Positions 3,478 to 31,097 of a stretch of 64,000 nucleotides of DNA are shown here, one piece after another. Both the position numbers and the translations under genes were made by a program. This DNA comes from Jiangella ureilytica (GTDB lineage Bacteria; Actinomycetota; Actinomycetes; Jiangellales; Jiangellaceae). Location: contig NZ_SMKL01000024.1 in NCBI RefSeq assembly GCF_004348545.1, positions 1 through 64,000 of the forward strand, read 5' to 3'. The notes below the pieces were generated by a model that did not search any database, had not been told where the DNA came from, and saw only the letters and a program-made list of their open reading frames with translations. Each line of letters starts with the position of its first letter. The first letter of the stretch is position 1.

Positions 3478-4815
3478 GTGGAGAAGCAGCAGCAGTTCGT
3501 CCTCCGGTCGCTGGAAGAGCGCGACATCCGGTTCGTCCGGCTCTGGTTCACCGACGTGCTCGGGTTCCTGAAGTCCGTGGCGGTGGCGCCGGCCGAGCTC
3601 GAGAACGCGTTCTCGGAGGGCATCGGGTTCGACGGCTCGGCCATCGAGGGGTTCGCCCGCGTCTACGAGGCCGACATGCTGGCCAAGCCCGACCCGACGA
3701 CGTTCCAGGTGCTGCCGTGGCGCGGCGGGTCCAACGGGACGGCTCGCATGTTCTGCGACATCCTCATGCCCGACGGCTCGCCGTCGTACGCCGACCCGCG
3801 GCACGTGCTCAAGCGCGCCCTCAGCCGGGCCGCCGAGCAGGGCTTCACGTTCTACACCCATCCCGAGGTCGAGTTCTTCGTCTTCAAGAACCAGCCCGAG
3901 GGCGGCGACGAGCCCGTTCCCGTCGACGCCAGCGGCTTCTTCGACCACACGGCGCACGGCATCGCCCAGGACTTCCGCCGCGACACCATCACGATGCTCG
4001 AGGACATGGGCATCTCGGTCGAGTTCAGCCACCACGAGGGCGCGCCCGGCCAGCAGGAGATCGACCTGCGCTACGCCGACGCCCTGGCCACGGCCGACAA
4101 CCTCATGACGTTCCGGGCCGTGGTCCGCGAGGTCGCGTTGTCGCAGGACCTCTACGCGTCGTTCATGCCCAAGCCGTTCACCGCCTGGCCGGGGTCGGGC
4201 ATGCACACCCACGTGTCGCTGTTCGAGGGCGACCGCAACGTCTTCCACGAACCGGGTGCGGAGTACCAGCTGTCCAAGACGGCCCGCTCGTTCATCGCCG
4301 GGCTGCTCAAGCACGCGCCCGAGATCACCGCCGTCACCAACCAGTGGGTCAACTCCTACAAGCGGCTGCGTGGCGGCGGCGAGGCGCCGGCCTACATCTG
4401 CTGGGGCCACAACAACCGGTCCGCGCTGGTCCGGGTGCCCATGTACAAGCCCGACAAGGGGCAGTCGGCACGGGTCGAGTTCCGCTCGCTCGATTCCGCC
4501 TGCAACCCGTACCTCGCCTACGCGGTCATCCTCGCGGCCGGCCTCAAGGGCATCGAAGAGGGCTACGAGCTGCCGCCGGGCGCCGAGGACGACGTGTGGG
4601 CGCTGACCGACCGCGAGCGCCGGGCCATGGGCATCGACCCGCTGCCGGCCTCGCTCGACGAGGCGATCCAGGCCATGGAGAACTCCGAGCTGGTCGCCGA
4701 GACCCTGGGTGAGCACGTCTTCGAGTTCTTCCTGCGCAACAAGCGCGCGGAGTGGAACGAGTACAGCCTGCAGGTCACCGCGTTCGAGCGGGCCAAGATG
4801 CTGCCGGTGATGTGA
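3478..4815 (+). CDS. glnA2: Glutamine synthetase family protein, GlnA2 type
   Basis: A 445-residue glutamine synthetase-fold enzyme. The opening VEKQQQFVLRSLEERDIRF, then GFDGSAIEGFARV, MPDGSPSYADPR and VTNQWVNSYKRL are, as I recall them, very close to mycobacterial GlnA2. The adenylylation-site tyrosine motif of GlnA1 ([12 protein letters not shown]) is absent: the equivalent region reads ELPPGAEDDVW, so GlnE should not control it. GTG at 3478 is preferred over GTG at 3460 because it gives the homologous N-terminus; neither has a strong ribosome binding site. Members of this clade have been reported to glutamylate polyamines rather than make glutamine, so the substrate here is open. A class I amidotransferase follows after 4 bp. 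Confidence 0.9.
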   Translation: MEKQQQFVLRSLEERDIRFVRLWFTDVLGFLKSVAVAPAELENAFSEGIGFDGSAIEGFARVYEADMLAKPDPTTFQVLPWRGGSNGTARMFCDILMPDGSPSYADPRHVLKRALSRAAEQGFTFYTHPEVEFFVFKNQPEGGDEPVPVDASGFFDHTAHGIAQDFRRDTITMLEDMGISVEFSHHEGAPGQQEIDLRYADALATADNLMTFRAVVREVALSQDLYASFMPKPFTAWPGSGMHTHVSLFEGDRNVFHEPGAEYQLSKTARSFIAGLLKHAPEITAVTNQWVNSYKRLRGGGEAPAYICWGHNNRSALVRVPMYKPDKGQSARVEFRSLDSACNPYLAYAVILAAGLKGIEEGYELPPGAEDDVWALTDRERRAMGIDPLPASLDEAIQAMENSELVAETLGEHVFEFFLRNKRAEWNEYSLQVTAFERAKMLPVM

Positions 4816-4819
4816 TCCG

Positions 4820-5527
4820 TTGATCGACGTCATCCAGCATGAGTCAGGCTGCCCGCTGGACCGGTTCGAGGGCTGGTTGACGGCGGCGGCTGCGGACGTG
4901 CGGGTGGTGCGCCCGTACGACGGCGACCCGGTGCCGTCGGTCCCCGCGGAGGGGCTGATCGTGCTGGGCGGGCAGATGTCGGCCTACGACGACGGCGTGG
5001 CGCCGTGGCTGCCGGCGGTGCGTGCGCTGCTCGCGGTTGCCGCCGCCGAGGCGACGCCGACGCTCGGGATCTGCCTGGGCGCCCAGCTGCTCACGGTCGC
5101 CTGCGGCGGCCGGGTCGAGGTCGATGCGGCGCCGGGGCGCGAGTCGGGTGTGGTCGACGTGCGCTGGCTGTCGTCGGCGGCCGACGATCCGCTGGTCAGC
5201 GGGCTGCCCGACCCGTTCCCGGGGCCGAGCATGCACGCCGACGCCGTGGCGTCGCTGCCGGCCGGCGCCGTCCTGCTGGGATCGTCGGCGATGTACCCGC
5301 ACCAGGCGTTCCGGGTCGGCGCCGCGGCATGGGGCGTGCAGTTCCACCCAGAGGTGTCGGAGCCCACGTTCGCGGGCTGGGCGGCCGAGCACCCCGACGT
5401 CGACTCGGCCGCGGTGGTGGGCGAACTGGTGTCACGCGACGCCGAGGTGGCAGCCGCCGGGCGCGAGCTGGCCACCCGGTTCGCCGCGATCGTCGCCAGG
5501 GCGGCGTCGTCGGCGGTCCCTCGGTAG
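4820..5527 (+). CDS. Class I glutamine amidotransferase (GMP synthase-like GATase1)
   Basis: A stand-alone glutaminase-type domain of 235 residues. The nucleophile elbow GICLGAQ places Cys85, and VQFHPEV gives His176 and Glu178, so the triad is complete. Proteins of this class hydrolyse a gamma-glutamyl amide. The start is TTG, 4 bp after the glnA2 stop, so the two are almost certainly cotranscribed; the ribosome binding site is weak, suggesting coupling. Pairing with GlnA2 suggests, by inference only, a gamma-glutamylation/hydrolysis route analogous to PuuA/PuuD. It lacks the synthetase domain of GMP synthase, so it is not GuaA. Confidence 0.85.
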   Translation: MIDVIQHESGCPLDRFEGWLTAAAADVRVVRPYDGDPVPSVPAEGLIVLGGQMSAYDDGVAPWLPAVRALLAVAAAEATPTLGICLGAQLLTVACGGRVEVDAAPGRESGVVDVRWLSSAADDPLVSGLPDPFPGPSMHADAVASLPAGAVLLGSSAMYPHQAFRVGAAAWGVQFHPEVSEPTFAGWAAEHPDVDSAAVVGELVSRDAEVAAAGRELATRFAAIVARAASSAVPR

Positions 5528-6677: not shown

Positions 6678-9600
6678 ATGTCTGTGAACCGGACCGAGGG
6701 CCGCGTCGCGTCGCTGGCCAAGGCCGGGTTCGCCGACACCGCCGCGGCTCAGCGCGAGCTCGACGGCCCGCTGCTCGGCGGTCTGGCCGCCGAGGCCGAC
6801 CTGGTCGCCGCGCTCGCCGTCGTCGCCGATCCCGACCTCGGGCTGCGCGGGCTGGGCCGGCTGCTCGAGTCGGTCTCGGCGCTGGACGACCCCGCCGAGC
6901 TGGACCAGCTGCGCACGGTGCTCGCCGGCGATTCGCCGCACCGGCGCCGGCTGCTCGCGGTGCTCGGGTTCAGTTCGGCGCTCGCCGACCACCTGTGCCG
7001 GCACCCGGAGCACTGGCGTGACCTCGTCGATCTGGACCCCGAGAACCGCCCGGGGGCCGACTCCGTCCGCGCCCGCATGCTCGAGGCCGTCGGCGCCGAT
7101 CCCGCCGCAGCCGAACCTGGAGCCACCGGTGAGCAGCCGGAGCTCCTCGACACGCTGCGCACGGCCTACCGCCGGCACGTCACGTCGCTGGCGGCGCTCG
7201 ACCTCGCCGACCGGCTCGACGTCGCCGCCGTCGCCGCGGAGCTCGCCGACCTTGCCGGTGCCACGCTCGAGGCCGCCCTCGCCGTCGCCCGGGCCGGGCT
7301 GCCCGCCGACGCGCCCGGCTGCCGGCTCGCCGTCATCGCCATGGGCAAGGCCGGCGGCCGCGAGCTCAACTACGCCTCCGACGTCGACGTCGTGTTCGTC
7401 GGCGAGCCGCCGGCCGACGCGCCCGACGACGCGACTGGCTGGCTGGCCACCGCGACGACGCTGGCCACCGCCCTGATGCGGGCGTGCTCCGTCTACACCG
7501 GCGAGGGCACCATCTGGCCGGTCGACGCCGCGCTGCGGCCCGAGGGCAAGCAGGGACCGCTGGTGCGCACCGTCGCCAGCCACGTCGCCTACTACCGCGA
7601 CTGGGCGAAGACCTGGGAGTTCCAGGCGCTGCTCAAGGCGCGTCCCGTGGCCGGCGACCGCGAGCTCGGGCAGGAGTACCTCGACGCCGTCACGCCCATG
7701 GTGTGGACGGCGGCCGGTCGCGACGGCTTCGTCGACGACGTGCACGCCATGCGGCGGCGGGTCGAGCACCACATCCGCCCGGCCGACGCGGACCGGCAGC
7801 TCAAGCTGGGTCCAGGCGGCCTGCGCGACGTCGAGTTCGCCGTCCAGCTGCTGCAGCTCGTGCACGGCCGGGCCGACGCGAGCCTCCACGACGGCAACAC
7901 GCTCGGGGCGCTCGGGGCGCTGACGGCGGGCGGCTACGTCGGGCGCGAGGACGGCGCCGTGCTCGACGCCGCGTACCGGTTCCTTCGGACGTTCGAGCAC
8001 CGCATCCAGTTGCGCGGGCTACGCCGCACCCACGTCGTCCCCGACTCCGACGAGCAGTTGCGCATCCTCGCGCGCTCGCTGTCGCTTCGCCAGCCTTCGG
8101 AGCTGAACGACGTCTGGCACCAGCAGGCGCGCGAGGTGCGGCGGCTGCACGAGAAGCTGTTCTACCGGCCGCTGCTGTCCGCCGTGGCGCGGCTGCCGGG
8201 CGACGGCGTCCGCCTCAGCCCCGAGGCGGCGCTGGCCCGGCTGCAGGCGCTCGGGTACGCCGACCCGGCGGGCGCGCTGCGACACCTCGAAGCGCTGACC
8301 ACGGGGGTGTCGCGGCGGGCCTCGATCCAGCGGACGCTGCTGCCGGTGCTGCTCGGCTGGTTCGCCGACGCGCCCGAGCCCGACACCGGGCTGGCCGGGT
8401 TCCGCAAGGTCAGCGAGGCCTTGGGGACGACGCCGTGGTACCTGCGGCTGCTCCGCGACGACGGCGCCGCGGCCGAGCGCATGGCCCGGGTGCTGGCGTC
8501 CGGCCGGTACGCCACGGAGCTGCTGCTGCGCGCGCCCGAATCCGTCGCCATGCTCGGCGACGACGACGCGCTGCGGCTGCGCGAGCGCGGGCCGCTCGAG
8601 AAGGAGGTCCTGGCCGGCGTCCAGCGCCACGACGATCCCGTCGACGCCATCGGGGTGGTGCGGGCCATGCGCCGTCGCGAGCTGTTCCGCGTCACCGTCG
8701 CCGACCTGGTGGGGGAGGTGCCGGTCGAGAGCATCGGCGAGGCGCTGACGGTGATCGCCGAGACCACGCTGTCCGGCGCCCTGGCCGCCGCCACCCGCGC
8801 GGTCGAAGCCGCGCGCGGCGGGCCGCTGCCCACCCGGCTGGCCGTGGTCGCCATGGGCCGGCTCGGCGGGCGCGAGATGGGCTACGCCTCGGACGCCGAC
8901 GTGCTGTTCGTGCACACGCCCTACCCCGACGAGGAGGAGACCGCGGGGGGATCCGCCGCCCTCGCCGTCGCCAACGAGATGACGCGGCTGCTGTCGCTGC
9001 CCTCACCCGAGCCGTCGCTGACCGTCGACGCGGCGCTGCGGCCCGAGGGCAAGCAGGGGCCGCTGGTGCGCACGCTGGCCTCGTACGCCGCCTACTACCA
9101 CCGGTGGGGTGAGGTGTGGGAGCGGCAGGCGCTGCTGCGGGCGGCGCCGTGCTGCGGCGATCCCGAGCTGCTGCGCCGCTTCTCGGCACTGATCGACCCC
9201 TTGCGGTGGCCGACTGCGGGGCTGACGGACGGGCAGATCCGCGACGTGCGGCGCATGAAGGCGCGGGTCGAGTCCGAGCGGCTGCCCCGCGGCGCCGACC
9301 CCTCGATGCACCTGAAGCTGGGCCCGGGCGGGCTCGCTGACGTCGAGTGGACGGCGCAACTGCTGCAGCTGCGGCACGCGTCGTCGGTGGCCGCCCTGCG
9401 CACGACGTCGACACCGGGGGCGCTGGACGCGGCCGTGGCGGCCGGGCTGCTGTCGTCGCCGGACCGGACGGTTCTCGTCGACGCCTGGCGGCAGGCGGCC
9501 CGCATCCGCAACGCGACGGTCCTGGTCACCGGCCGCCCGTCCGACATGCTCCCGAAAGATCCGAAGACGCTGGCGGCGGTGTCGCGCGTCCTCGGCTACG

Positions 9601-9698
9601 GCGTCGGCGAGAGCACCGTCTTCGTCGACGACTACCACCGCAGCGCCCGCAAGGCCCGCGCCGTCGTCGAACGCCTCTTCTACGACGACGTCCGCTGA
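6678..9698 (+). CDS. glnE: Bifunctional glutamine synthetase adenylyltransferase / adenylyl-removing enzyme
   Basis: GlnE switches GlnA1 off and on by attaching or removing AMP at a tyrosine, in response to nitrogen state. The 1006-residue protein has the two nucleotidyltransferase halves: GKAGGRELNYASDVD near residue 222 (removase half) and GRLGGREMGYASDAD near residue 726 (transferase half). Each is followed by a conserved LRPEGKQGPLVRT block and a KLGPGGL(R/A)DVE block. The length agrees with other actinobacterial GlnE proteins. Its target GlnA1 is encoded 9 kb away at 18.6 kb, separated by a catabolic block; in many actinobacteria glnE and glnA1 are adjacent. Confidence 0.96.
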   Translation: MSVNRTEGRVASLAKAGFADTAAAQRELDGPLLGGLAAEADLVAALAVVADPDLGLRGLGRLLESVSALDDPAELDQLRTVLAGDSPHRRRLLAVLGFSSALADHLCRHPEHWRDLVDLDPENRPGADSVRARMLEAVGADPAAAEPGATGEQPELLDTLRTAYRRHVTSLAALDLADRLDVAAVAAELADLAGATLEAALAVARAGLPADAPGCRLAVIAMGKAGGRELNYASDVDVVFVGEPPADAPDDATGWLATATTLATALMRACSVYTGEGTIWPVDAALRPEGKQGPLVRTVASHVAYYRDWAKTWEFQALLKARPVAGDRELGQEYLDAVTPMVWTAAGRDGFVDDVHAMRRRVEHHIRPADADRQLKLGPGGLRDVEFAVQLLQLVHGRADASLHDGNTLGALGALTAGGYVGREDGAVLDAAYRFLRTFEHRIQLRGLRRTHVVPDSDEQLRILARSLSLRQPSELNDVWHQQAREVRRLHEKLFYRPLLSAVARLPGDGVRLSPEAALARLQALGYADPAGALRHLEALTTGVSRRASIQRTLLPVLLGWFADAPEPDTGLAGFRKVSEALGTTPWYLRLLRDDGAAAERMARVLASGRYATELLLRAPESVAMLGDDDALRLRERGPLEKEVLAGVQRHDDPVDAIGVVRAMRRRELFRVTVADLVGEVPVESIGEALTVIAETTLSGALAAATRAVEAARGGPLPTRLAVVAMGRLGGREMGYASDADVLFVHTPYPDEEETAGGSAALAVANEMTRLLSLPSPEPSLTVDAALRPEGKQGPLVRTLASYAAYYHRWGEVWERQALLRAAPCCGDPELLRRFSALIDPLRWPTAGLTDGQIRDVRRMKARVESERLPRGADPSMHLKLGPGGLADVEWTAQLLQLRHASSVAALRTTSTPGALDAAVAAGLLSSPDRTVLVDAWRQAARIRNATVLVTGRPSDMLPKDPKTLAAVSRVLGYGVGESTVFVDDYHRSARKARAVVERLFYDDVR

Positions 9699-9734
9699 CC
9701 GCGCTGATCGGAGTTGGACGAGAGGAGCTTTGTG

Positions 9735-10250
9735 ATGACGACTGTTGACGAGAACTCCACCGACGCCGCGTATCTGGAGCGCTGTATCGAGCTGGCCGAG
9801 GCGGCCCTCGCCGCCGGCGACGACCCGTTCGGGTCGGTACTGGTGGGCGCCGACGGCACGGTGCTCGGCGAGGACCACAACCACGAGACGACCGCCTCCG
9901 ACCCCACCGCGCATCCGGAGCTCGCGCTGGCCCGGTGGGCCGCTCGGCACCTGCCGCCCGACCAGCGCGCGGGCGCGACCGTCTACACGTCAGGCGAGCA
10001 CTGCCCGATGTGTGCAGCGGCGCACGGCTGGGTCGGGCTGGGCCGCATCGTCTTCGCGGCGTCGAGCGCGCAGCTGGCCGCCTGGCGCGCGGAGTGGGGC
10101 CTGCCGCCGTCACCCGTCACAGCGTTCCCGATCACCGACGTCGTGCCCGGGATCGAGGTCACCGGGCCGGTTGCGCCCTACGACGAACGCGTGCGCGTGC
10201 TCCACGAGCGCGCCGCGCGGAACCGCGCCCAGACGAAGCTCATTCCTTGA
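9735..10250 (+). CDS. Nucleoside/nucleobase deaminase (CDA-like zinc hydrolase)
   Basis: A 171-residue member of the cytidine/guanine deaminase superfamily. Zinc ligands and catalytic Glu are in view as HPELALARW (His-x-Glu) and EHCPMCAAA (usually PCxxC). The remainder, DDPFGSVLVGADG near the N-terminus and FPITDVVPGIEV near the end, fits guanine- or cytosine-deaminase-like members rather than tRNA adenosine deaminase. ATG at 9735 was chosen because GAGGAG precedes it by about 7 bp. The substrate cannot be told from sequence. It overlaps the 3' end of the convergent permease gene by 11 bp. Confidence 0.85.
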   Translation: MTTVDENSTDAAYLERCIELAEAALAAGDDPFGSVLVGADGTVLGEDHNHETTASDPTAHPELALARWAARHLPPDQRAGATVYTSGEHCPMCAAAHGWVGLGRIVFAASSAQLAAWRAEWGLPPSPVTAFPITDVVPGIEVTGPVAPYDERVRVLHERAARNRAQTKLIP

Positions 10251-21791: not shown

Positions 21792-22721
21792 TCAGCGCGC
21801 GGCGCGGGCCTCCATGGCCTGCCGGTAGAGCCTGCCGGCGCGGTACGACGAGCGCACCAGCGGCCCGGACATGACGCCCGCGAAGCCGATCTGCTCGGCC
21901 TCGGCCTGCAGCTCCACGAACTCCTCGGGCTTGACCCACCGCTCGATGGGGTGGTGCCGGACGGAGGGGCGCAGGTACTGCGTGATGGTGATGAGGTCGC
22001 AGCCGGCCTCGTGCAGGTCGACCAGCGCCTGCGAGATCTCTTCGCGGGTCTCGCCCATGCCGAGGATGAGGTTCGACTTGGTGATCATGCCTGCGGCCCG
22101 GGCGATGGAGATGACGTCGAGCGAGCGCTCGTACCGGAACGCCGGCCGGATGCGCTTGAAGATGCGCGGCACGGTCTCGACGTTGTGCGCGAACACCTGC
22201 GGCTGCGCGTCGAAGACCTGCTGCAGCAGCTCGGCGCGGCCGGAGAAGTCGGGCGTCAGGATCTCGACCCCGGTGTTCGGGTTGAACTTGTGGATCTCGC
22301 GGATGGTCTCGGCGTAGAGCCAGGCGCCCTCGTCGGGGAGGTCGTCGCGGGTGACGCCGGTGACCGTGGCGTAACGCAGGCCCATGGCCTGGACCGACTC
22401 GGCGACCCGGCGCGGCTCGTCGCGGTCGAGGTCGTCGGGCTTGCCGGTGTCGATGAGGCAGAAGTCGCACCGTCGCGTGCAGTGGTCGCCCCCGATGAGG
22501 AACGTCGCCTCGCGGTCTTCCCAGCACTCGAAGATGTTGGGGCAGCCGGCCTCTTGGCAGACCGTGTGCAGGCCCTCGCGTTTCACCAGCGACTGCAGCT
22601 CGCGGTACTCCGGGCCCATGGTCGCCTTCGTCTTGATCCAGGAAGGCTTCTTCTCGATGGGCGTGGCGGCGTTGCGTACCTCGAGGCGGAGCAGCCGACG
22701 TCCCTCCGGTGCGACAGTCAC
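21792..22721 (-). CDS. lipA: Lipoyl synthase
   Basis: A radical SAM enzyme that inserts two sulfurs into protein-bound octanoyl groups. At 309 residues it is of normal length. The radical SAM cysteines are CTRRCDFC. The auxiliary cluster cysteines are in [14 protein letters not shown], and the closing RSSYRAG supplies the serine ligand. The GTG start is 9 bp after the lipB stop, so the two lipoate genes form one operon. Its products would be used by the E2 at 29.2 kb and by the glycine cleavage system (gcvT at 35.8 kb). Confidence 0.97.
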
Positions 22722-22730
22722 CCCTTCACC

Positions 22731-23435
22731 TTACGTCTGCGGCTGCAGCGCGAGGAGATCGTCGAGGTGACGTTCGACATACGGGAGCACCTCGGCGACG
22801 GTGACCCGGCGGCCCAGCTCCTTCGAGAGCGTGGTGGTGCCGGCGTCGCTGATGCCGCAGGCGATGATGCGGTCGTACCAGCCGAGGTCGTTGTCGCAGT
22901 TGAGGGCGAACCCGTGCATGGTGACGCCCTGGGCGACCCGCAGCCCGACGGCGCCCAGCTTGCGGTCGGGGCCGCCGTCGCCGGGCTGGATCCAGACGCC
23001 GCTGCGGCCGTCGACCCGGACGCCGTCGACGCCGAAATCGTGGCAGACGTCGAGCATGAGCTGCTCGACGCGGCGGACGTAGCCGATGACGTCGTACGGC
23101 TCGGGCAGCTCGAGGATCGGGTAGCCGGTGAGCTGGCCCGGCCCATGCCAGGTGATCTTGCCGCCCCGGTCGACGTCGATGACCGGCGCGCCGGCGTCGA
23201 GCAGTGGCCGCTCGTCGGGCGTGGTGCGCTTGCCCGCCGTGTAGACCGCCTCGTGCTCGAGCAGCACGACGGTGTCGTCGATCTCGCCCGCGACCCGCGC
23301 GGCGTGCAGCCGCCGCTGCTCGTCCCAGGCCTCCTGGTACGGCACGTAGCCCTCGTGCCGGATGATCCGTAGCTCGCCCACAGACGTCGAGCCTACGCCC
23401 GCCGGGAAGGCTTCCGGCAACACCGCGGTTGGCAC
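22731..23435 (-). CDS. lipB: Octanoyl-ACP:protein N-octanoyltransferase
   Basis: Transfers octanoate from ACP to the lipoyl domains, the step before LipA. Marks: [51 protein letters not shown] with the catalytic Lys, and CGISDAG with the catalytic Cys. GTG at 23435 has GAGG about 10 bp upstream. A GTG at 23381 would give a start closer to many homologues, so the N-terminus is uncertain by 18 residues. The start region faces the divergent LLM gene with almost no gap. Confidence 0.95.
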
Positions 23436-23440
23436 CTGTC

Positions 23441-24490
23441 GTGACCTCTTCTCCTCCGGCGGGCTCCCGCAGCGCGCAGGCCCGCTTCCGCGGAGTACCC
23501 CTGTCCGTTCTCGACCTCGCTCCTGTCGTCACGGGGTCGACCCCGTCGGCGGCCCTGGCGAACACGCTGGAGCTGGCCCGGCTGGCCGACGGCCTGGGCT
23601 TCCGGCGCTACTGGCTGGCCGAGCACCACAACATGCCGGGCATCGCCAGCTCCGCGCCGCCGATCCTCATCGGGGCGGTGGCCGCCGCGACGACGGCGAT
23701 CCGGGTCGGCTCGGGCGGGGTCATGCTGCCCAACCACATGCCGCTCGTGGTCGCCGAGCAGTTCGGCACGCTCGATGCGCTGCACCCCGGTCGCATCGAC
23801 CTCGGCATCGGCCGGGCGCCGGGGACCGACGGGCTGACGGCGCACGCGCTGCGCGGGAGCAGCGACCCGCGCCTGGTCGAGGAGTTCCCGCAGCATCTGG
23901 CCCAGGTCCGGGCCTTTTTCTCCGGCGACTGGCCCGCCGACCACCCCTACGCCGCCATCACCGCGACGCCGGGCCGAGGCGCGGACGTGCCGGTCTGGCT
24001 GCTCGGGTCCAGCGACTACAGCGCGCAGGCGGCGGCCGCGCTGGGGCTGCCCTTCTCGTTCGCGCACCACTTCAGCTCGGCGAACACCGTCCCGGCGCTG
24101 ACGCTCTATCGCGACCGCTACCAGCCGTCGGCCGCCCACCCCGCGCCCCACGCGATGGTCGCCGTCAGCGTCGTGCTGGCCGACGACGACGCGCGCGCGG
24201 AGTGGCTCGCCGCGCCGATGAAGCTGTCGATGCTGCGCGTCCGGACCGGGCGGCCGGGGCCCCTGCCGACGCCCGAGGAGGCCGCGGCGCACACGTTCAC
24301 CCCGGCCGAGCTGGAGATGATGGCGCCGTTCCTGGGCGGGCAGATCGCGGGCGGGCCCGACACCGTCCGCCGCGAGCTGGCGGCGCTGCTGGACCGGACG
24401 GCGGCCGACGAGCTCATGATCGTGACGACGGTGACCCCGCAGGCCGACCGGCTGCGCTCCTACGAGCTGCTGGCGAAGCTGCTGCCCTGA
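23441..24490 (+). CDS. LLM-class flavin-dependent oxidoreductase (luciferase-like monooxygenase)
   Basis: A 349-residue TIM-barrel protein of the bacterial luciferase superfamily, MsnO8-like subgroup. Marks: [74 protein letters not shown], and [23 protein letters not shown]. Such enzymes use FMNH2 or F420H2; the substrate is unknown. GTG at 23441 was chosen; it leaves only 5 bp to the divergent lipB start, so the two promoters must overlap the coding regions or each other. Confidence 0.9.
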
Positions 24491-24763: not shown

Positions 24764-25480
24764 TCAGACGGGCTCGGCGGTGAGGACGGACTCCTTGGCC
24801 TCGCCGCCGACCGCGTCGACGACGTAGCCGCGGGCGCCGTCGCGCTCGGCGTGGACGGCGGCCAGCTCCGTCCCGCGGTACAGCAGGCCGGCGCCGTCGT
24901 CGGTGGCGTACGAGGTGGGCAGGACGCCGTCGGCGACCATCCGGTGCAGGACGACGCGGCGCTCCTCCTCGGAGTCGTAGTGCACGCCGTTGCCGTACGG
25001 CAGCAGCGCGAGCCCGTCGGTGACCGCGCGCAATCGCGGCCCGAACGAGTCGGTCGGGCCGCCCGCGTGCCAGCAGATCGAGCCCGCCGACACGCCGGCC
25101 AGAACGACGCCGGCCTCCCACGCCTCGCGCATGACGTCGTCGAGGCCGTGCAGCCGCCACATCGCGAGCAGCCCCGCGACCGAGCCCCCGCCGACCCAGA
25201 GCACGTCCTGGGCCAGCACGTGCGCCCGGACGTCCTCGACGTTCGGCATCGGGAACAGGCTCAGGTGGGACACGTCGACCGACCAGCCCGCGAACGCGGC
25301 GTACGTGAGCTGGACGTAGCTCACGTTGTCGCCGGACGCCGTCGGCAGGAAGCACAGCTTGGGCCGATCGGCGCCGGTCAGCCGCAGCGCGAGCTTCGCC
25401 AGCCCCGCCGGCCGGAGGTTGTCGCGGGCGTCGCGGGCGAACCCGCCGCTGGTGGCGAGGATGGTCGGCGTGCGGGTCAT
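24764..25480 (-). CDS. Peptidase E-like protein (S51 family)
   Basis: A 238-residue member of the S51 dipeptidase family, class I amidotransferase-like fold. The nucleophile elbow is GVSAGSICW, giving the catalytic Ser. Before it comes WVGGGSVAGLLAMWR, and the start holds ILATSGGFARDARDN. PepE cleaves Asp-X dipeptides; actinobacterial relatives are annotated the same way, without much direct proof. The ATG overlaps the stop of the DedA-like gene (ATGA), so the two are cotranscribed. Confidence 0.88.
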   Translation of the reverse strand: MTRTPTILATSGGFARDARDNLRPAGLAKLALRLTGADRPKLCFLPTASGDNVSYVQLTYAAFAGWSVDVSHLSLFPMPNVEDVRAHVLAQDVLWVGGGSVAGLLAMWRLHGLDDVMREAWEAGVVLAGVSAGSICWHAGGPTDSFGPRLRAVTDGLALLPYGNGVHYDSEEERRVVLHRMVADGVLPTSYATDDGAGLLYRGTELAAVHAERDGARGYVVDAVGGEAKESVLTAEPV

Positions 25481-26007
25481 CGGGCCTCCTGGTCGTGGAC
25501 GAGCGTCTGTCGTGCCCGGCGGCGACGGTAGCTCAGGACGGCCGCGACCACGGCCAGCGCTCCCAGCACGACGGCGGCCGCGGCCAGCGGCGAGGCCGAC
25601 GCGACCTCGGCCGCGCCCCACACCACGCTCAGCCCGCCGACGGTCCAGACGACCGCCCACAGCGCCGACCCGACGAGCATCGCCGCCAGATAGCGGCCGA
25701 ACGGCATGCGGGTGGCGCCGGCGACCGCGTTGACGGCGGTCTGGACGCCGATGGTCAGGAACGACAGCGTGACGGCGGCCGGACCGTACCGCGCGACGAC
25801 CCGTTCGGCCCGGGCCAGGCGGTCGCGGCCGATGCGGTCGCCCCAGCGTGACCGCGCGATCCCCGTCCCGGCGGCGCGTCCCAGCCAGTAGGTCGCCTGG
25901 GCGCGCGCGACGACGATGCCGAACATCACCGCGATGCCGATCCAGAGGGGAAGTCCGAACGGGCTCTCGGGGGCGGCGAGCGGCGTGACCCCGTCCATGT
26001 CCGGCAT
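25477..26007 (-). CDS. DedA/VTT-domain membrane protein
   Basis: A 176-residue membrane protein with four to five hydrophobic segments: LPLWIGIAVMFGIVVARAQA, then a basic cytoplasmic loop, VTLSFLTIGVQTAVNAVAGATRMPFGRYLAAMLVGSALWAVVWTVGG, and two C-terminal helices before a basic tail. The MPFGRYLAAMLVGSALW stretch is typical of the VTT domain; DedA relatives move lipids or carriers across the membrane. ATG at 26007 is the best start; ATG at 25998 is also possible. The classical DedA arginine motif is weak, so the exact role is unclear. The stop overlaps the peptidase E start. Confidence 0.78.
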   Translation of the reverse strand: MPDMDGVTPLAAPESPFGLPLWIGIAVMFGIVVARAQATYWLGRAAGTGIARSRWGDRIGRDRLARAERVVARYGPAAVTLSFLTIGVQTAVNAVAGATRMPFGRYLAAMLVGSALWAVVWTVGGLSVVWGAAEVASASPLAAAAVVLGALAVVAAVLSYRRRRARQTLVHDQEAR

Positions 26008-26125
26008 CGTAGTCACCGTCGCGACACGCCCGACGAAGCATCCGGACCGATGTGTGACATCGGCCCTGCGGACTTGTGACACGGCCGATGAGGCATCCGG
26101 GCCCGAGGTTTGCAACGATGGGCCG

Positions 26126-28060
26126 ATGCAGGGTCTCGAGACTCCCGCGGGTTACACCGTCACCCGGCGGCTCGGCTCCGACGCGTCGGCCATGTTCCTC
26201 GCGCGAGAGGACGCGACCGGTGCGTCCGTCACCCTGCGTTTCGTCGGCCAGCCCGACCGCCAGGTGCGCGACCGCCTCCGGCTCTCCGCGGCGGCATTGC
26301 GCTCCGTCAATCACCCGCACGTCATCGAGTTCCTCGATATCGTCGACGGTCCCGGCGGCGTGGTCGTCGTGCTGGGCGCGGCCGAGGGCGGAAGCCTGGC
26401 CGGCATCATCGGCGCACGCGGCGTGCTGCCGGCCGGCGAGGTCGTGACGGCCTGCGCCCCGGTCGCCGAAGGGCTCACCGAGGTGCACCGCCGCGGGCTC
26501 GTCCACGGCGACCTCACGCTCGACGACATCGTCTTCAGCCTCGACGGCCGGCCCATGGTCGCCGGCATCGGGCTGGTCCAGGCCGGCATCCCGCTGCGGG
26601 TCGGCCAGCGCGCGCGGCCGGTGCCGCCCGAGGTCCAGGCCGGCTCGCCGCCCGGCCCGCCGGCCGATGTGTACGGGCTGGTCACGGCCGCCGTCGTCGC
26701 CCTGACGGGGTATCTGCCGTCCGCGCGGCTCTCGCTGCCCGCCGTCCCGCCGGCCACCCAGGCGCTGCTGGCCAGCGCGCTCGACCCCGTGCCCAACCGG
26801 CGTCCGCCCGCCAGCAGCATCGGCAACGTCTTCTTCGCCGTCGCCGACCCCGCACCGGTCGAGCTCGTCCTCGAAGAGGGCCACGCGACGACGGGCACCA
26901 TGCGGCCGGTCCTCGACGCCCCCGCCATGGGCGCCGACGACGACGTGGCCGCCTTCATGCGCCGCTCCACCGCCACCGGCCGCCGCGCCCGCCGCCGGGC
27001 CGAGTCCGGCGACCAGCGCGACGTCCCCGAGGTCGGCACGCCGGGCGCCATCGGCGGCCTGGTGGGGCCGGCGGGCGCGGCTGGCGCTGCCGGTGCCGCT
27101 GGCGCCGCCGGCGCTTCTGCGGCTCCGGGCGTGGGTGCGCCGCCCGTGCCGGGTGGCGCCGGGGCGAGCCCGACGGCGCCCACCGGGCCGATCCGCACGC
27201 CGCGCCGTGGCCGCCGTGGGCGGGGTGAGGCGACCCCGGCCGGCCCGGGCGGCGCGGGGCCGGGTGGCGCCGGGCCGGGTGGCGCTGGGCCGGGCGGTCC
27301 TGGCGGGCGTGGTCCCGGCGGCATCGACGACGGCGCCAACGTGCCGGTGCCCGACGGCGTGCTGCCGGGCGAGCGCCGCCGCGGCCGCAGCGCCGGCGAA
27401 GCTCTCGCCGCCGCGCCGGCCGCGAAGCAGTCGCGCCGCGGCCGTCCGCCCGCACCCGAGGACCCTGACGGCGGCACGAAGCGCAAGGACCGCCTCTGGA
27501 TCGTCAGCGCGCTGGTGGCATTGCTGCTGGTGGCGGGCGTGGCGATCGTCGGCTGGCGCATCTTCGGCGACGACACCCCGACGGCCGGCCCCGGCACCGG
27601 CTCCAGCCCCAGCGACACCGAGGCGTCGACCGACCTCTGCGGTGGGCCGCAGCCCGCGCCCACCGCGCCGCCGCCCGCCGTCACCGACTGGACGCAAGAG
27701 GTCCAGCGGCTGTACTCGCTGCGCGCGCAGGCGTTCGAGGAGAGCAACCCCGAGCTGCTCTGCGAGGTGCACGCCCCGACCAACTCCATCCTCGCCGACG
27801 ACGCCGAGCTCCTCGAGGAGTACGCCGACGCCGGGGTCCACACCGAGGGCCTCACCTTCGAGGTGGTCAACGCCGAACTGGTCTCGCAAGAGGGCGGCCG
27901 GGCGACGGTCACCATCACCCAGCGCATCCCCGACTACACGCTGGTCAACGAGGACGGCGAGGTCGAGCAGGAGATCGCCGGCACCGAGGACCAGACCTGG
28001 GACGCCGACCTCGTCGCCGTCGCCAACCCCGACGGCACCACGTCCTGGCGGTTCGGCTAG
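26126..28060 (+). CDS. Serine/threonine kinase-like membrane protein, probably a pseudokinase
   Basis: A 644-residue protein. Residues about 1-260 follow the Hanks kinase fold: YTVTRRLGSDASAMFLA (glycine loop), SVNHPHVIEFLDIVDGPGG, VAEGLTEVHRRGLVHGDLTLDDIVF and ADVYGLVTAAVVALTGYLP. Key catalytic residues are missing: the ATP-binding Lys strand reads ASVTLRFVG with no Lys, the HRD motif is HGD (His127), and DFG is replaced by AGIGL (146-150). A long Ala/Gly/Pro linker with collagen-like PGGAG repeats, a Lys/Arg patch and a single membrane helix (about 458-480) lead to an outside domain of about 140 residues of SnoaL/NTF2-like appearance. Probably a signalling or scaffold protein rather than an enzyme. 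Confidence 0.82.
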   Translation: MQGLETPAGYTVTRRLGSDASAMFLAREDATGASVTLRFVGQPDRQVRDRLRLSAAALRSVNHPHVIEFLDIVDGPGGVVVVLGAAEGGSLAGIIGARGVLPAGEVVTACAPVAEGLTEVHRRGLVHGDLTLDDIVFSLDGRPMVAGIGLVQAGIPLRVGQRARPVPPEVQAGSPPGPPADVYGLVTAAVVALTGYLPSARLSLPAVPPATQALLASALDPVPNRRPPASSIGNVFFAVADPAPVELVLEEGHATTGTMRPVLDAPAMGADDDVAAFMRRSTATGRRARRRAESGDQRDVPEVGTPGAIGGLVGPAGAAGAAGAAGAAGASAAPGVGAPPVPGGAGASPTAPTGPIRTPRRGRRGRGEATPAGPGGAGPGGAGPGGAGPGGPGGRGPGGIDDGANVPVPDGVLPGERRRGRSAGEALAAAPAAKQSRRGRPPAPEDPDGGTKRKDRLWIVSALVALLLVAGVAIVGWRIFGDDTPTAGPGTGSSPSDTEASTDLCGGPQPAPTAPPPAVTDWTQEVQRLYSLRAQAFEESNPELLCEVHAPTNSILADDAELLEEYADAGVHTEGLTFEVVNAELVSQEGGRATVTITQRIPDYTLVNEDGEVEQEIAGTEDQTWDADLVAVANPDGTTSWRFG

Positions 28061-28309: not shown

Positions 28310-29200
28310 TCACAGAGCGGCGCGGATGATCTCGCGCACGTCCTCGTGGTCGAACGTGAACCCCGCCTCGGTCAATCTCGTGGGCAGGATCCGCAGGCTG
28401 CCCAGCAGTTCCGACGACGCCTCGCCGAGGGCGATCTGCAGGCCGATCCCCGGCACCGGCAGCAGCCGGGGCCGGTGCAGCTCGTGGGCCAGGACCCGGC
28501 TGAACTCGCCGTTGGACACCGGCGCCGGGCAGCAGACGTTGTACGGGCCCACGCACCCGTGCTGCTCGATCATGAACCGCAGCGCCCGGACCACGTCGTG
28601 CAGCGACACGGGGCTCCAGAACTGCTCCCCGTTGCCGAAGTGACCGCCCAGGCCCAGCCGGAACAGCGGCAGCAGCGGCTTCAGCGCCCCGCCGCCGGGC
28701 CCGATCACCAGGCCGAACCGAGGGTGGCAGACGGCGATGTCGGCGGCCCGGGCGGGGGCGGCGGCGTGCTCCCAGTCCTGGCACAGCCGCGCGAGGAAGC
28801 CGTCGCCGGCCTCGGACTCCTCGTCCAGCACCTCGCGGCCGCGGTCGGGGCCGTAGAAGCCCATGGCCGAGGCCGACACGAAGACCCGGGGCCGGGTCGA
28901 GAGCCCGGTCAGGGCCGACGCGAGCACCGTCGTCGAGCGGATGCGGCTGTGGTGGAGCTGCTTCTTGAACCGTCGCGTCCACCGCCGCGAGCCGACGTTG
29001 ATGCCGCCCAGGTGCACGACGGCCTCGACGCCGGCCATACGGGCCAGCGGGACCACGCCCTGCTCGGGGTCCCACTGTGCCTCGTCCGGGGCGGCCGGAC
29101 GGTGCCGGACCAGCCGCAGCACGTCGTGGCCGGCGGACTCCAGGCCCGCGACGAGCGCCGTGCCGATGAACCCGCTGGAACCCGCGACCGCGACCCGCAC
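28310..29200 (-). CDS. TIGR01777-family epimerase (SDR_a / YfcH-like)
   Basis: A 296-residue nucleotide-binding SDR-like protein. The Rossmann loop is VAVAGSSGFIGTALV, followed by HLGGINVGSRRWTRRFKKQ, SASAMGFYGPDRG and GPGGGALKPLLPLFRLGLGG. The C-terminal DUF1731 tail holds LLPVPGIGLQIALGEASSELLGS. Substrate unknown. The GTG start is 4 bp from the E2 gene stop, so it is the last gene of a leftward lpdA-E2 operon. Mycobacteria have a homologue in the same place (Rv2216 from memory). Confidence 0.92.
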   Translation of the reverse strand: MRVAVAGSSGFIGTALVAGLESAGHDVLRLVRHRPAAPDEAQWDPEQGVVPLARMAGVEAVVHLGGINVGSRRWTRRFKKQLHHSRIRSTTVLASALTGLSTRPRVFVSASAMGFYGPDRGREVLDEESEAGDGFLARLCQDWEHAAAPARAADIAVCHPRFGLVIGPGGGALKPLLPLFRLGLGGHFGNGEQFWSPVSLHDVVRALRFMIEQHGCVGPYNVCCPAPVSNGEFSRVLAHELHRPRLLPVPGIGLQIALGEASSELLGSLRILPTRLTEAGFTFDHEDVREIIRAAL

Positions 29201-29204
29201 GCGC

Positions 29205-31097
29205 TTACACGCCCAGGTCGGCCTCGAACGCCCCGCCCTCGAGCCGCTTCTTCACCGTGCCGAGGAACCGGGCGGCGTCGGCGCCGTCGATGAGCCGGTG
29301 GTCGTAGCTCAGCGCGAAGTACACCATGTGCCGCACGGCGATGGTCTCGCCCAGGTTGGGGTCGTCGATGACCATCGGACGCTTGACGACGGCGCCGGTG
29401 CCGAGGATGGCGACCTGCGGCTGGAAGAAGATCGGCGTGTCGAACAGCGCGCCGCGGCTGCCGGTGTTGGTCAGCGTGAACGTGCCGCCGGTGATCTCGT
29501 CGGGCGTCAGCTTGCCGGTGCGCGCCTTCTCGGCGACCTCGGCGATCTTGCGGGCCAGCCCGGCGATGTTGAGGTCGCCGGCGTCCTTCACGACGGGGAC
29601 CAGCAGGCCCTGCTCGGTGTCGACGGCGATGACGAGGTTCTCGCGGTCGTGGTAGGTGACCTCGCCCTTCTCGACGTCGATGGACGCGTTGATCTTCGGG
29701 TGCGCCTTGAGCGCCTCGACCGCGGCCTTCGCGAAGAACGGCAGGAACGACAGCTTGACGCCCTCGCGCTGGGCAAAGTCGCCCTTCAGGCGGTCGCGCA
29801 GCCGGGCCAGCGTGGTGATGTCGATCTCGATGACGGTGGTGAGCTGCGCGGTCTCTTGCAGCGACTCGTGCACGCGCTTGGCGATGACCTTGCGCATGCG
29901 GGTCAGCTTCTCGGTGGTGCCACGCAGCGGCGACGGCTCGACCGACTCGGCCGCCGCGGCGGGCTGGGCCGCCGGTGCGGGGGCCGACGGCGCCGGCTGT
30001 GCGGCGGCCGCCTTGGCGGCCTCGGCCGCGGCGAGCACGTCCTGCTTGCGGACCCGCCCGCCGACGCCGGTGCCCTGGACGCTGCCGAGGTCGACGTTGT
30101 GCTCGGCGGCCAGCTTGCGCACCAGCGGCGTGACGTACGTGGCGCCGTTGCCCGACGGGGCCGCGGCGGGCGCCGATGGAGCCGGAGCGGACGGCGGCGC
30201 CTGCGTGGCGGTGGCCTGCGGACCCTGGGTCTGCGCGGCCTGCGGCACCGGCTGCTCGGCCGGGGCCGCCTGAGCCGGCGCGGCCTGCTGCGGCGCGGGC
30301 GCCGCCTGCTGGGCCGGAGCCTCGTCCTGCGCCGGCGCGGACTCCTGTGCCGGAGCCGCGGGAGCGGGCGCGGCCGACGCGCCGTTGCCGCCGGCGGTGC
30401 CGACGAGCGCGAGCACGGCGCCGACCTCGACGGTCTCGTCCTCGGCGACCTTGATCTCGAGCAGCGTGCCGGCGACCGGCGACGGGATCTCGGTGTCGAC
30501 CTTGTCGGTGGAGATCTCGAGCAGTGGCTCGTCGACGGCGACCGTGTCGCCCGGCTGCTTGAGCCAGCGCGTGACCGTGCCCTCGGTGACGCTCTCGCCC
30601 AGCGCCGGCAGGGTGACCGGCGTGCTCTCGCCCGAGCCACCGGCGCCGTCGCCCGACGAGGCCGGCGCGGCCTCCGCGGCCGGTGCCTCCGCGGCCGGAG
30701 CGGCCTCCTCGGACGGTGCCTCCGCAGCCGGTGCCTCCACCTGGGCCGGAGCGTCCTCGGCCGGAGGGGCCTCCTCGGCGGACGGAGCCTCCTGCGTCGG
30801 AGCGGCCTCGGCCTGGGCCGGCTCCTGGCCGCCGCTGCCGCCGTCGCCGCTGGTCTCGCCCTCCTCGCCGATGACCGCCAGCTCGGCGCCGACCTCGACG
30901 GTCTCGTCCTCGGCAACCTTGATCTCGAGCAGCGTGCCGGCGACCGGCGACGGGATCTCGGTGTCGACCTTGTCGGTGGAGATCTCGAGCAGTGGCTCGT
31001 CGACGGCGACCGTGTCGCCCGGCTGCTTGAGCCAGCGCGTGACCGTGCCCTCGGTGACGCTCTCGCCGAGTGCGGGCAAGGTGACGGAGGTTGCCAT
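29205..31097 (-). CDS. Dihydrolipoamide acyltransferase, E2 of a 2-oxoacid dehydrogenase complex
   Basis: The E2 core that carries acyl groups on lipoyl arms and hands them to CoA (pyruvate or 2-oxoglutarate dehydrogenase; DlaT/SucB type). It has 630 residues. Two lipoyl domains have lipoylated lysines at about 43 and 199, each in [14 protein letters not shown], joined by Ala/Pro/Glu linkers. An E3-binding domain (about 318-356, [20 protein letters not shown]) and the catalytic domain with SYDHRLIDG (His near 600) follow. ATG has AGAGGA upstream. The two lipoyl domains are encoded by about 183 bp that differ at one base. lpdA is upstream on the same strand. Confidence 0.95.
30417..30600 (-). 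repeat. Internal DNA repeat: second lipoyl domain of E2
   Basis: This stretch matches 30885-31068 with a single mismatch (GGCGACC versus GGCAACC), at an offset of 468 bp. It encodes the second lipoyl domain. Near-identity at synonymous sites points to recent duplication or gene conversion. Confidence 0.9.
30885..31068 (-). repeat. Internal DNA repeat: first lipoyl domain of E2
   Basis: Partner of 30417-30600. It encodes the first lipoyl domain of the same protein. Confidence 0.9.

Follow-up and report, generated by a model that had tools for sequence, protein, structure and literature searches.

The gene at positions 26126 to 28060 of the window, the whole 64,000-nucleotide stretch of Jiangella ureilytica DNA analysed here, probably encodes a non-catalytic receptor or scaffold that spans the membrane once. 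From the N to the C terminus, its product consists of a degenerate Hanks-type kinase domain, a low-complexity linker, one transmembrane helix and an NTF2-like domain. We infer a lack of phosphotransfer, a ligand-sensing role for the outer domain and recruitment of a partner by the inner one: the NTF2-like domain would bind something in the cell-wall space, whether small molecule, peptide or partner protein, and the kinase-shaped inner domain, hardly capable of the usual phosphate transfer, would act as a protein-binding platform that a conserved basic tail motif probably joins. The domain order, the topology signals, the catalytic losses, purifying selection and a locus that is fixed in many families can all be read from the sequences. 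The features of the gene are as follows.

26126..28060, + strand: whole pseudokinase gene, 644 amino acids; ortholog in 21 of the 22 genomes of the same family
26126..26875, + strand: cytoplasmic pseudokinase domain (predicted), residues 1-250, with the Pkinase match at residues 11-199
26237..26239, + strand: R38 at the position of the beta3 (VAIK) lysine; arginine in 21/21 family sequences
26504..26527, + strand: catalytic loop HGDLTLDD, residues 127-134; HRD Arg replaced by Gly, Asp kept, Asn replaced by Asp
26564..26572, + strand: GIG at the DFG position, residues 147-149, as paired by hhalign
26936..26995, + strand: tail motif DDDVAAFMRRSTATGRRARR, residues 271-290, conserved within a poorly conserved linker
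27245..27289, + strand: residues 374-388, with three PGGAG repeats out of a total of four; low complexity, strain-specific
27494..27553, + strand: transmembrane helix, residues 457-476, from hydropathy and flanking charges
27632..28057, + strand: extracytoplasmic NTF2-like domain (predicted), residues 503-644, from an AlphaFold2 model and fold search

The open reading frame runs from an ATG at 26126 to a stop codon at 28058-28060, and its frame stays open further upstream in the window. In four orthologs (L017-L020) the frame opens just four codons before the methionine that matches 26126, which is therefore the likely start. A plasmid origin was considered and rejected; the lone match was to a Deinococcus plasmid (33% over 20% of the protein).

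The kinase-like domain and its catalytic residues

The window protein matched the Pkinase profile (PF00069) with 43.6 bits against a cut-off of 31.7; its match to the PASTA kinase model (NF033483), at 42.8 bits, was far under the cut-off of 450. When the Jiangella family alignment (21 sequences, window protein included) was compared with four kinases from the same genome, hhalign returned a probability of 99.8% and an E value of 4.3e-30, pairing R38 with the VAIK lysine, HGD with HRD, D134 with the catalytic-loop asparagine, GIG with DFG and S54 with the alphaC glutamate. The residue set of an active kinase (Lys, Asp, Asn and DFG Asp) is thus incomplete, reading R38, D129, D134 and G147. Arg38 and Gly128, the latter at the position of the HRD arginine, are each found in all 21 family sequences. 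The catalytic aspartate (D129) is kept in 15 of them, the window protein included, and is alanine in the other 6, and position 134 is Asp or Glu in 20/21. The DFG aspartate and the alphaC glutamate are each gone from 20/21, where the DFG position reads GIG, GVG or GAG; the sole exception for both is L026 (genome G003), which keeps the glutamate, HGD and an SDLG motif, with DLG at the DFG position. Glycines 2 and 3 of the G-loop are mostly absent. The DFG glycine, the proline and glutamate of APE, the alphaF aspartate and both C-lobe arginines are invariant in 21/21, and 23 residues span G147 to E169 in the window protein.

A displaced catalytic lysine, as in WNK kinases, is ruled out for the window protein, since its residues 1-250 contain no lysine whatsoever; the same holds for 18 of the 21 family sequences. 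With most of the catalytic residues gone, the C-lobe residues invariant and VAxK, HRD and DFG all retained by the four kinases from the same genome, the window protein is, as judged by sequence, a pseudokinase and not the product of a misread alignment. An earlier note on this DNA had proposed a probable pseudokinase lacking the ATP-binding lysine, the HRD arginine and the entire DFG motif. Its first loss is borne out by the pairing of R38, and of the catalytic residues "displaced but present" that it had named as a refutation, the alignment gives no displaced lysine. The other two losses call for qualification. The HRD arginine is indeed missing from the whole family, but this is not a mark of decay, because the 20 syntenic members in which Lys, Asp, Asn and DFG Asp are all retained lack it too (16 have Gly, 2 Ser and 2 Ala in its place, giving HGD, HSD and HAD, respectively); and DFG is lost as far as its aspartate is concerned, in all sequences except L026, whereas its glycine is invariant.

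An active but unusual enzyme is an unlikely alternative, in which Arg38 would replace the lysine, D129 would serve as the base and D133/D134 would bind metal, for use as a kinase or another transferase. The retention of D129 in 15/21 and of an acidic residue at position 134 in 20/21 speaks for it, as do precedents in PMC12599244, where the beta3 Arg of the ActPs2 and DYD families is modelled with ATP and SelO and SidJ have new activities. Because D129 is kept and such beta3-Arg families have been modelled with ATP, the window protein may, by analogy, retain some nucleotide binding or an unusual transfer reaction. Both points weigh against a receptor or scaffold, as does a structure prediction of the kinase domain from 9 close sequences, which yielded no usable model (pLDDT 38.8). 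Catalysis is opposed by the loss of the DFG Asp and the alphaC Glu in all but one sequence, by the mostly missing G-loop glycines and by the six orthologs in which the catalytic Asp has become alanine although the rest of the protein is conserved, and we retain the receptor or scaffold reading.

Linker, membrane helix and outer domain

The linker, which had been described as collagen-like, does not have that character across the family. The window protein has four copies of PGGAG and each of the other 20 sequences at most three, some none, and the longest G-X-Y run comprises seven triplets in the window protein, 8 and 11 in two others, four in one and 2 or 3 in the remaining 17; runs of at most four triplets in 18/21 leave no conserved long run. 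As the repeats vary by strain, the linker is best regarded as low-complexity, with no conserved collagen-like element. Its conserved part is the motif just after the kinase domain, DDVxxYM...GRRARR: GRRARR is found in 20/21, and L026 has GRHAAR in its place and also lacks the DDVxxYM part.

With the kinase domain left aside, hydropathy averaged over 19 residues comes up to 1.6 only at residues 454-482, in agreement with the membrane helix proposed earlier. The helix is preceded by KRKDR and followed by an acidic stretch. According to the positive-inside rule, the basic flank of a transmembrane helix lies on the cytoplasmic side, and the kinase-like part is therefore predicted to be inside and the C-terminus outside.

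For the C-terminal 142 residues AlphaFold2 gave a model with a mean pLDDT of 93.3. A Foldseek search with this model returned 37 matches at E <= 0.001, of which ranks 1-17 were the intermembrane-space domains of ARC6/PARC6 (E 5.4e-6 to 9.7e-5, with modest TM-scores of 0.48-0.61). Later matches included Tim44, the CaMKII hub and the RsgI9 NTF2 domain; many were NTF2-like and a few were not (SPLUNC1, a designed protein). VIA-align placed ARC6 entry 5d9r at Z 12.2, with an rmsd of 3.1 over 122 residues and 19% identity; the ARC6/PARC6 entries ranged over Z 10.9-12.2, and the next group, a mitochondrial ribosome chain, reached 9.8. The model thus supports an NTF2-like fold for the outer domain, as the earlier note had suspected, with the ARC6/PARC6 intermembrane-space domain as its nearest match in fold; sharing that fold reveals no function.

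The Pfam families SnoaL_3, SnoaL_4 and DUF4440 were absent from the scan of the window protein at E <= 1. Among 57 class members, DUF4440 was matched in 9 (best E 0.0011), SnoaL_3 in 3 and SnoaL_4 in 2, these being the only families among the 25 listed with more than one member matched, and the ARC6-like IMS profile (PF13355) was matched in 1/57 (E 0.087). Profile comparison of the outer domain with solved structures gave nothing convincing either, the best hit being a Rho exchange factor (E 0.0018) that looks like chance. Two cysteines, Cys 505 (27638-27640) and Cys 546 (27761-27763), are invariant in 16 aligned outer domains of the window's family and could form a lineage-specific disulfide; Cys 546 is missing from the consensus of the wider outer-domain family.

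The lip locus and the graded loss of the kinase part

Throughout Actinomycetes the gene has a fixed position, with lipB on one side and an oxidoreductase-sucB-lpd-pepA block on the other. In the window its surroundings are as follows.

21792..22721, - strand: LipA
22731..23435, - strand: LipB; adjacent and divergent in other members of the class, but separated from the pseudokinase gene by three others in the window
23429-24490, + strand: luciferase-like monooxygenase, between lipB and the VTT gene
24764-25423, - strand: peptidase S51 family protein, between lipB and the VTT gene
25477-26016, - strand: VTT-domain membrane protein, divergent from the pseudokinase gene
28310..29200, - strand: TIGR01777 family oxidoreductase, convergent neighbour
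29205..31097, - strand: SucB (2-oxo acid dehydrogenase E2), next neighbour

We collected 100 loci from 88 genomes, 99 of which hold an outer-domain ORF (100 such ORFs altogether). These loci are a non-random sample, drawn mostly from the upper parts of scored hit lists, and cover 87 of the 141 matching genomes outside the window's own family, which we take to be Jiangellaceae. In the flanking sequence covered, which mostly extended to about 8 kb, 87/100 ORFs had lipB in the 5' flank, the TIGR01777 oxidoreductase or sucB in the 3' flank, or both; the side on which neighbours lie was recorded for every one of the 100 ORFs and their strand for the first 60 loci, of which 57 had lipB-, oxidoreductase- or sucB-type neighbours. 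In these 60 loci lipB, when found, was directed away from the pseudokinase gene and the oxidoreductase, when found, towards it, except in L105, where it was reversed. Neighbours named on representatives were LipB, LipA, TIGR01777, SucB, dihydrolipoyl dehydrogenase, leucyl aminopeptidase, GlnA, DUF4191 and RDD. We do not claim a link to lipoate metabolism: with lipB transcribed away from the gene and the oxidoreductase towards it, the fixed place may simply reflect a block that rearranges slowly. Among 13 genomes picked from those with no outer-domain match, the oxidoreductase was matched in 11. Nine of their best loci were full-length: in five, lipB lay just 74-100 bases away, so that there is no room for the gene; in two more the gap measured about 590 and 785 bases, and in the last two the flank contained neither lipB nor sucB.

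Two side observations concern this region. The VTT-domain protein, presumably of the DedA type, is encoded divergently from the pseudokinase in 8/8 loci (L037-L044), and its match to the undecaprenyl phosphate transporter UptA, at 31.3 bits below a cut-off of 250, is a possible hint at the cell envelope. In L139 (G145), two outer-domain ORFs (4107-5294 and 8115-10217) lie near the lip locus; their outer domains are identical at 124/124 residues, which by sequence marks a recent local copy, and the shorter ORF is cut or contains an N-run.

The one genome of Jiangella's family scored as lacking an ortholog, G004 (81% complete), has weak kinase matches only and an outer-domain match at E 8.8e-11. 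A profile of the Jiangella-family outer domain matched 95/393 genomes of the class and a widened profile 162/393, in 70 of 137 genera; the larger count leans on the choice of profile, as the widened one was built from hits of the first. The domain is thus widespread in the class, and the Pfam scans did not assign it. In a sample of the phylum, 19/246 genomes were matched, 12 of them outside the class (G393, G404, G418, G431, G444, G467, G477, G517, G556, G566, G586 and G595), where the ORFs comprise 176-393 amino acids, with one exception of 543. The outer domain may, on this distribution, be older than its fusion to the kinase.

Automatic HMM alignment divided the 87 lip-locus ORFs into 20 that keep Lys, Asp, Asn and DFG Asp, 36 that are degenerate, 7 that are cut by a contig end or N-run and 24 with no kinase match at a first threshold of 30 bits. 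A more sensitive all-frame scan of these 24 recovered remnants in four (clear in L110 and L162, weak in L135, and weak and in a neighbouring frame in L113), leaving 20 with no trace, 14 of them in family f26. Lip-locus outer-domain genes with a degenerate or missing kinase part are, by their sequences, a reality. One might then suppose that the gene is decaying, the kinase domain being a departing relic and the outer domain alone being of consequence, and the 20 of 87 traceless ORFs would fit this. For Jiangella we regard it as very doubtful. Over seven pairs within the genus, the kinase domain showed dN/dS values of 0.062-0.215, the linker 0.120-0.556 and the helix plus outer domain 0.071-0.360; the kinase domain had the lowest ratio of the three parts in 6/7 pairs, and 47 alignment columns are listed as invariant among the 21 family sequences. 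The sequences thus indicate purifying selection on the kinase domain and a gene that is no relic in Jiangella. In the seventh pair (L011/L014) the kinase domain had the highest ratio, which counts against the receptor or scaffold reading.

Another 13 outer-domain ORFs lie off the lip locus, 12 of them in family f18: six are HRD/DFG kinases, five are degenerate, one has no kinase match and one is cut. When the lip-locus protein was compared with a kinase encoded elsewhere in the same genome, the outer domains were 89, 77 and 62% identical in G126 (L092/L095), G323 (L136/L084) and G354 (L143/L142), respectively, against 35-36% for the kinase domains. By sequence, the outer domain seems to have been transferred recently between the pseudokinase and an HRD- or HLD-type kinase; in the other 8/11 pairs, kinase and outer domains had diverged about equally. 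Such pairs raise the idea of a regulatory partnership, in which a pseudokinase would be paired with a true kinase whose outer domain is of the same kind, and both would answer the same input. The six f18 kinases and the three closely matching pairs are what it has in its favour, but we find it distinctly improbable: the Jiangella genome (G000) holds a single outer-domain copy and hence no such pair, the second kinase of G323 is of the HLD type with its beta3 Lys absent in the alignment, the ORF that encodes its counterpart in G354 is cut or contains an N-run, and in eight of 11 pairs the outer domains are not clearly closer than the kinase domains.

A FastTree phylogeny of 79 kinase domains, approximate and with long branches and several weak inner nodes, recovered the lip-locus family as one clade (support 0.65). 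Members with the full catalytic set all fell outside a pseudokinase-rich clade (support 0.925) that contains Jiangella, and so did five loss-bearing members (L079, L090, L102, L110 and L167), in which at least one of the four catalytic residues is absent in the alignment. L026 is the first branch within the window's family (support 0.959); because it branches first, the simplest reading is that the DFG Asp disappeared within this family after the L026 split and, on the evidence of these sequences, separately from f18.

We tentatively suggest, at somewhat below even odds, that the kinase was lost stepwise at the lip locus while the outer domain was kept, and that one family acquired the outer domain on an HRD/DFG kinase that looks active. 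The HRD Arg would have gone first and Lys, Asn and DFG Asp next, on more than one occasion; loss of the catalytic Asp would have followed, and that of the complete inner domain would have come last. The persistence of the outer domain in this series is by selection of hits, since that domain served as the search bait and loci with a kinase but no outer domain could not appear. If the series is true, the conserved function would lie in the outer domain and the kinase would be an exchangeable output. One syntenic gene occurs in three forms, namely an HGD-type kinase that looks complete, a pseudokinase and a kinase-less outer domain, and swaps of these natural orthologs at one locus could serve to test the role of a pseudokinase after catalysis is lost.

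Comparison with known systems

In a PDB sequence search, the top bacterial kinase and second match overall was PknI (5m09, E 6.4e-11), presumably that of Mycobacterium tuberculosis. PknI likewise lacks the HRD Arg (HND); unlike the window protein, it keeps DFG. The best fold match of the outer domain, ARC6/PARC6 (PF13355), shares just 19% identity with it and hardly any profile match.

Bacterial pseudokinases are present in many genomes and have been little explored by experiment, and the pseudokinase domains of MviN and EssB work as scaffolds, as described in PMC12599244. Like MviN (ActPs3), the window protein is actinobacterial and membrane-linked, with decayed catalytic motifs. The motifs themselves differ (VALT / Lsidhpsr / Y-- in MviN, VTLR / HGDLTLDD / GIG here), the window protein has an NTF2-like outer domain and no peptidoglycan-synthesis (MviN) part, and the complete motif degradation of ActPs3 is not seen, as the catalytic Asp is kept and the motifs align with no deletion (PMC12599244). 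ActPs3 is further marked by a deletion in the activation loop, a region in which the window protein has 23 residues from G147 to E169. The view taken earlier that the layout differs from that of MviN thus holds for both motif states and domains.

The beta3 Arg is shared with the ActPs2 and DYD families, together with a C-terminal membrane region or membrane association. The change of Asp to Asn, the DFG deletion (in most) and the 250-aa extension of the activation loop (in about 90%) that mark ActPs2 are absent here, as is the DYD motif at the DFG position that marks the DYD family. GLW pseudokinases carry GLW in place of HRD, where the window protein has HGD, and CP1 and DLHK have no transmembrane region, where the window protein has one such stretch. 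By the features stated in PMC12599244, none of the pseudokinase families compared from it fits the window protein, and a search of its main text gave no word starting with NTF2, HGD, extracellular, Jiangella or lipo. Among the papers listed in searches of the open-licence PMC literature, none was recognised as dealing with the pseudokinase locus or layout.

NTF2-like outer domains on kinases are in general already known: in PMC3924330, ligand binding is proposed for extracellular NTF2-like domains fused to protein kinase domains. The window protein differs from these fusions (DUF4878 and others) in that its outer domain matches no such family in the Pfam scans, its kinase domain is degenerate and its gene sits at the fixed lip locus, and it resembles them in its predicted arrangement, with the kinase domain inside the cell and the NTF2-like domain outside (PMC3924330).
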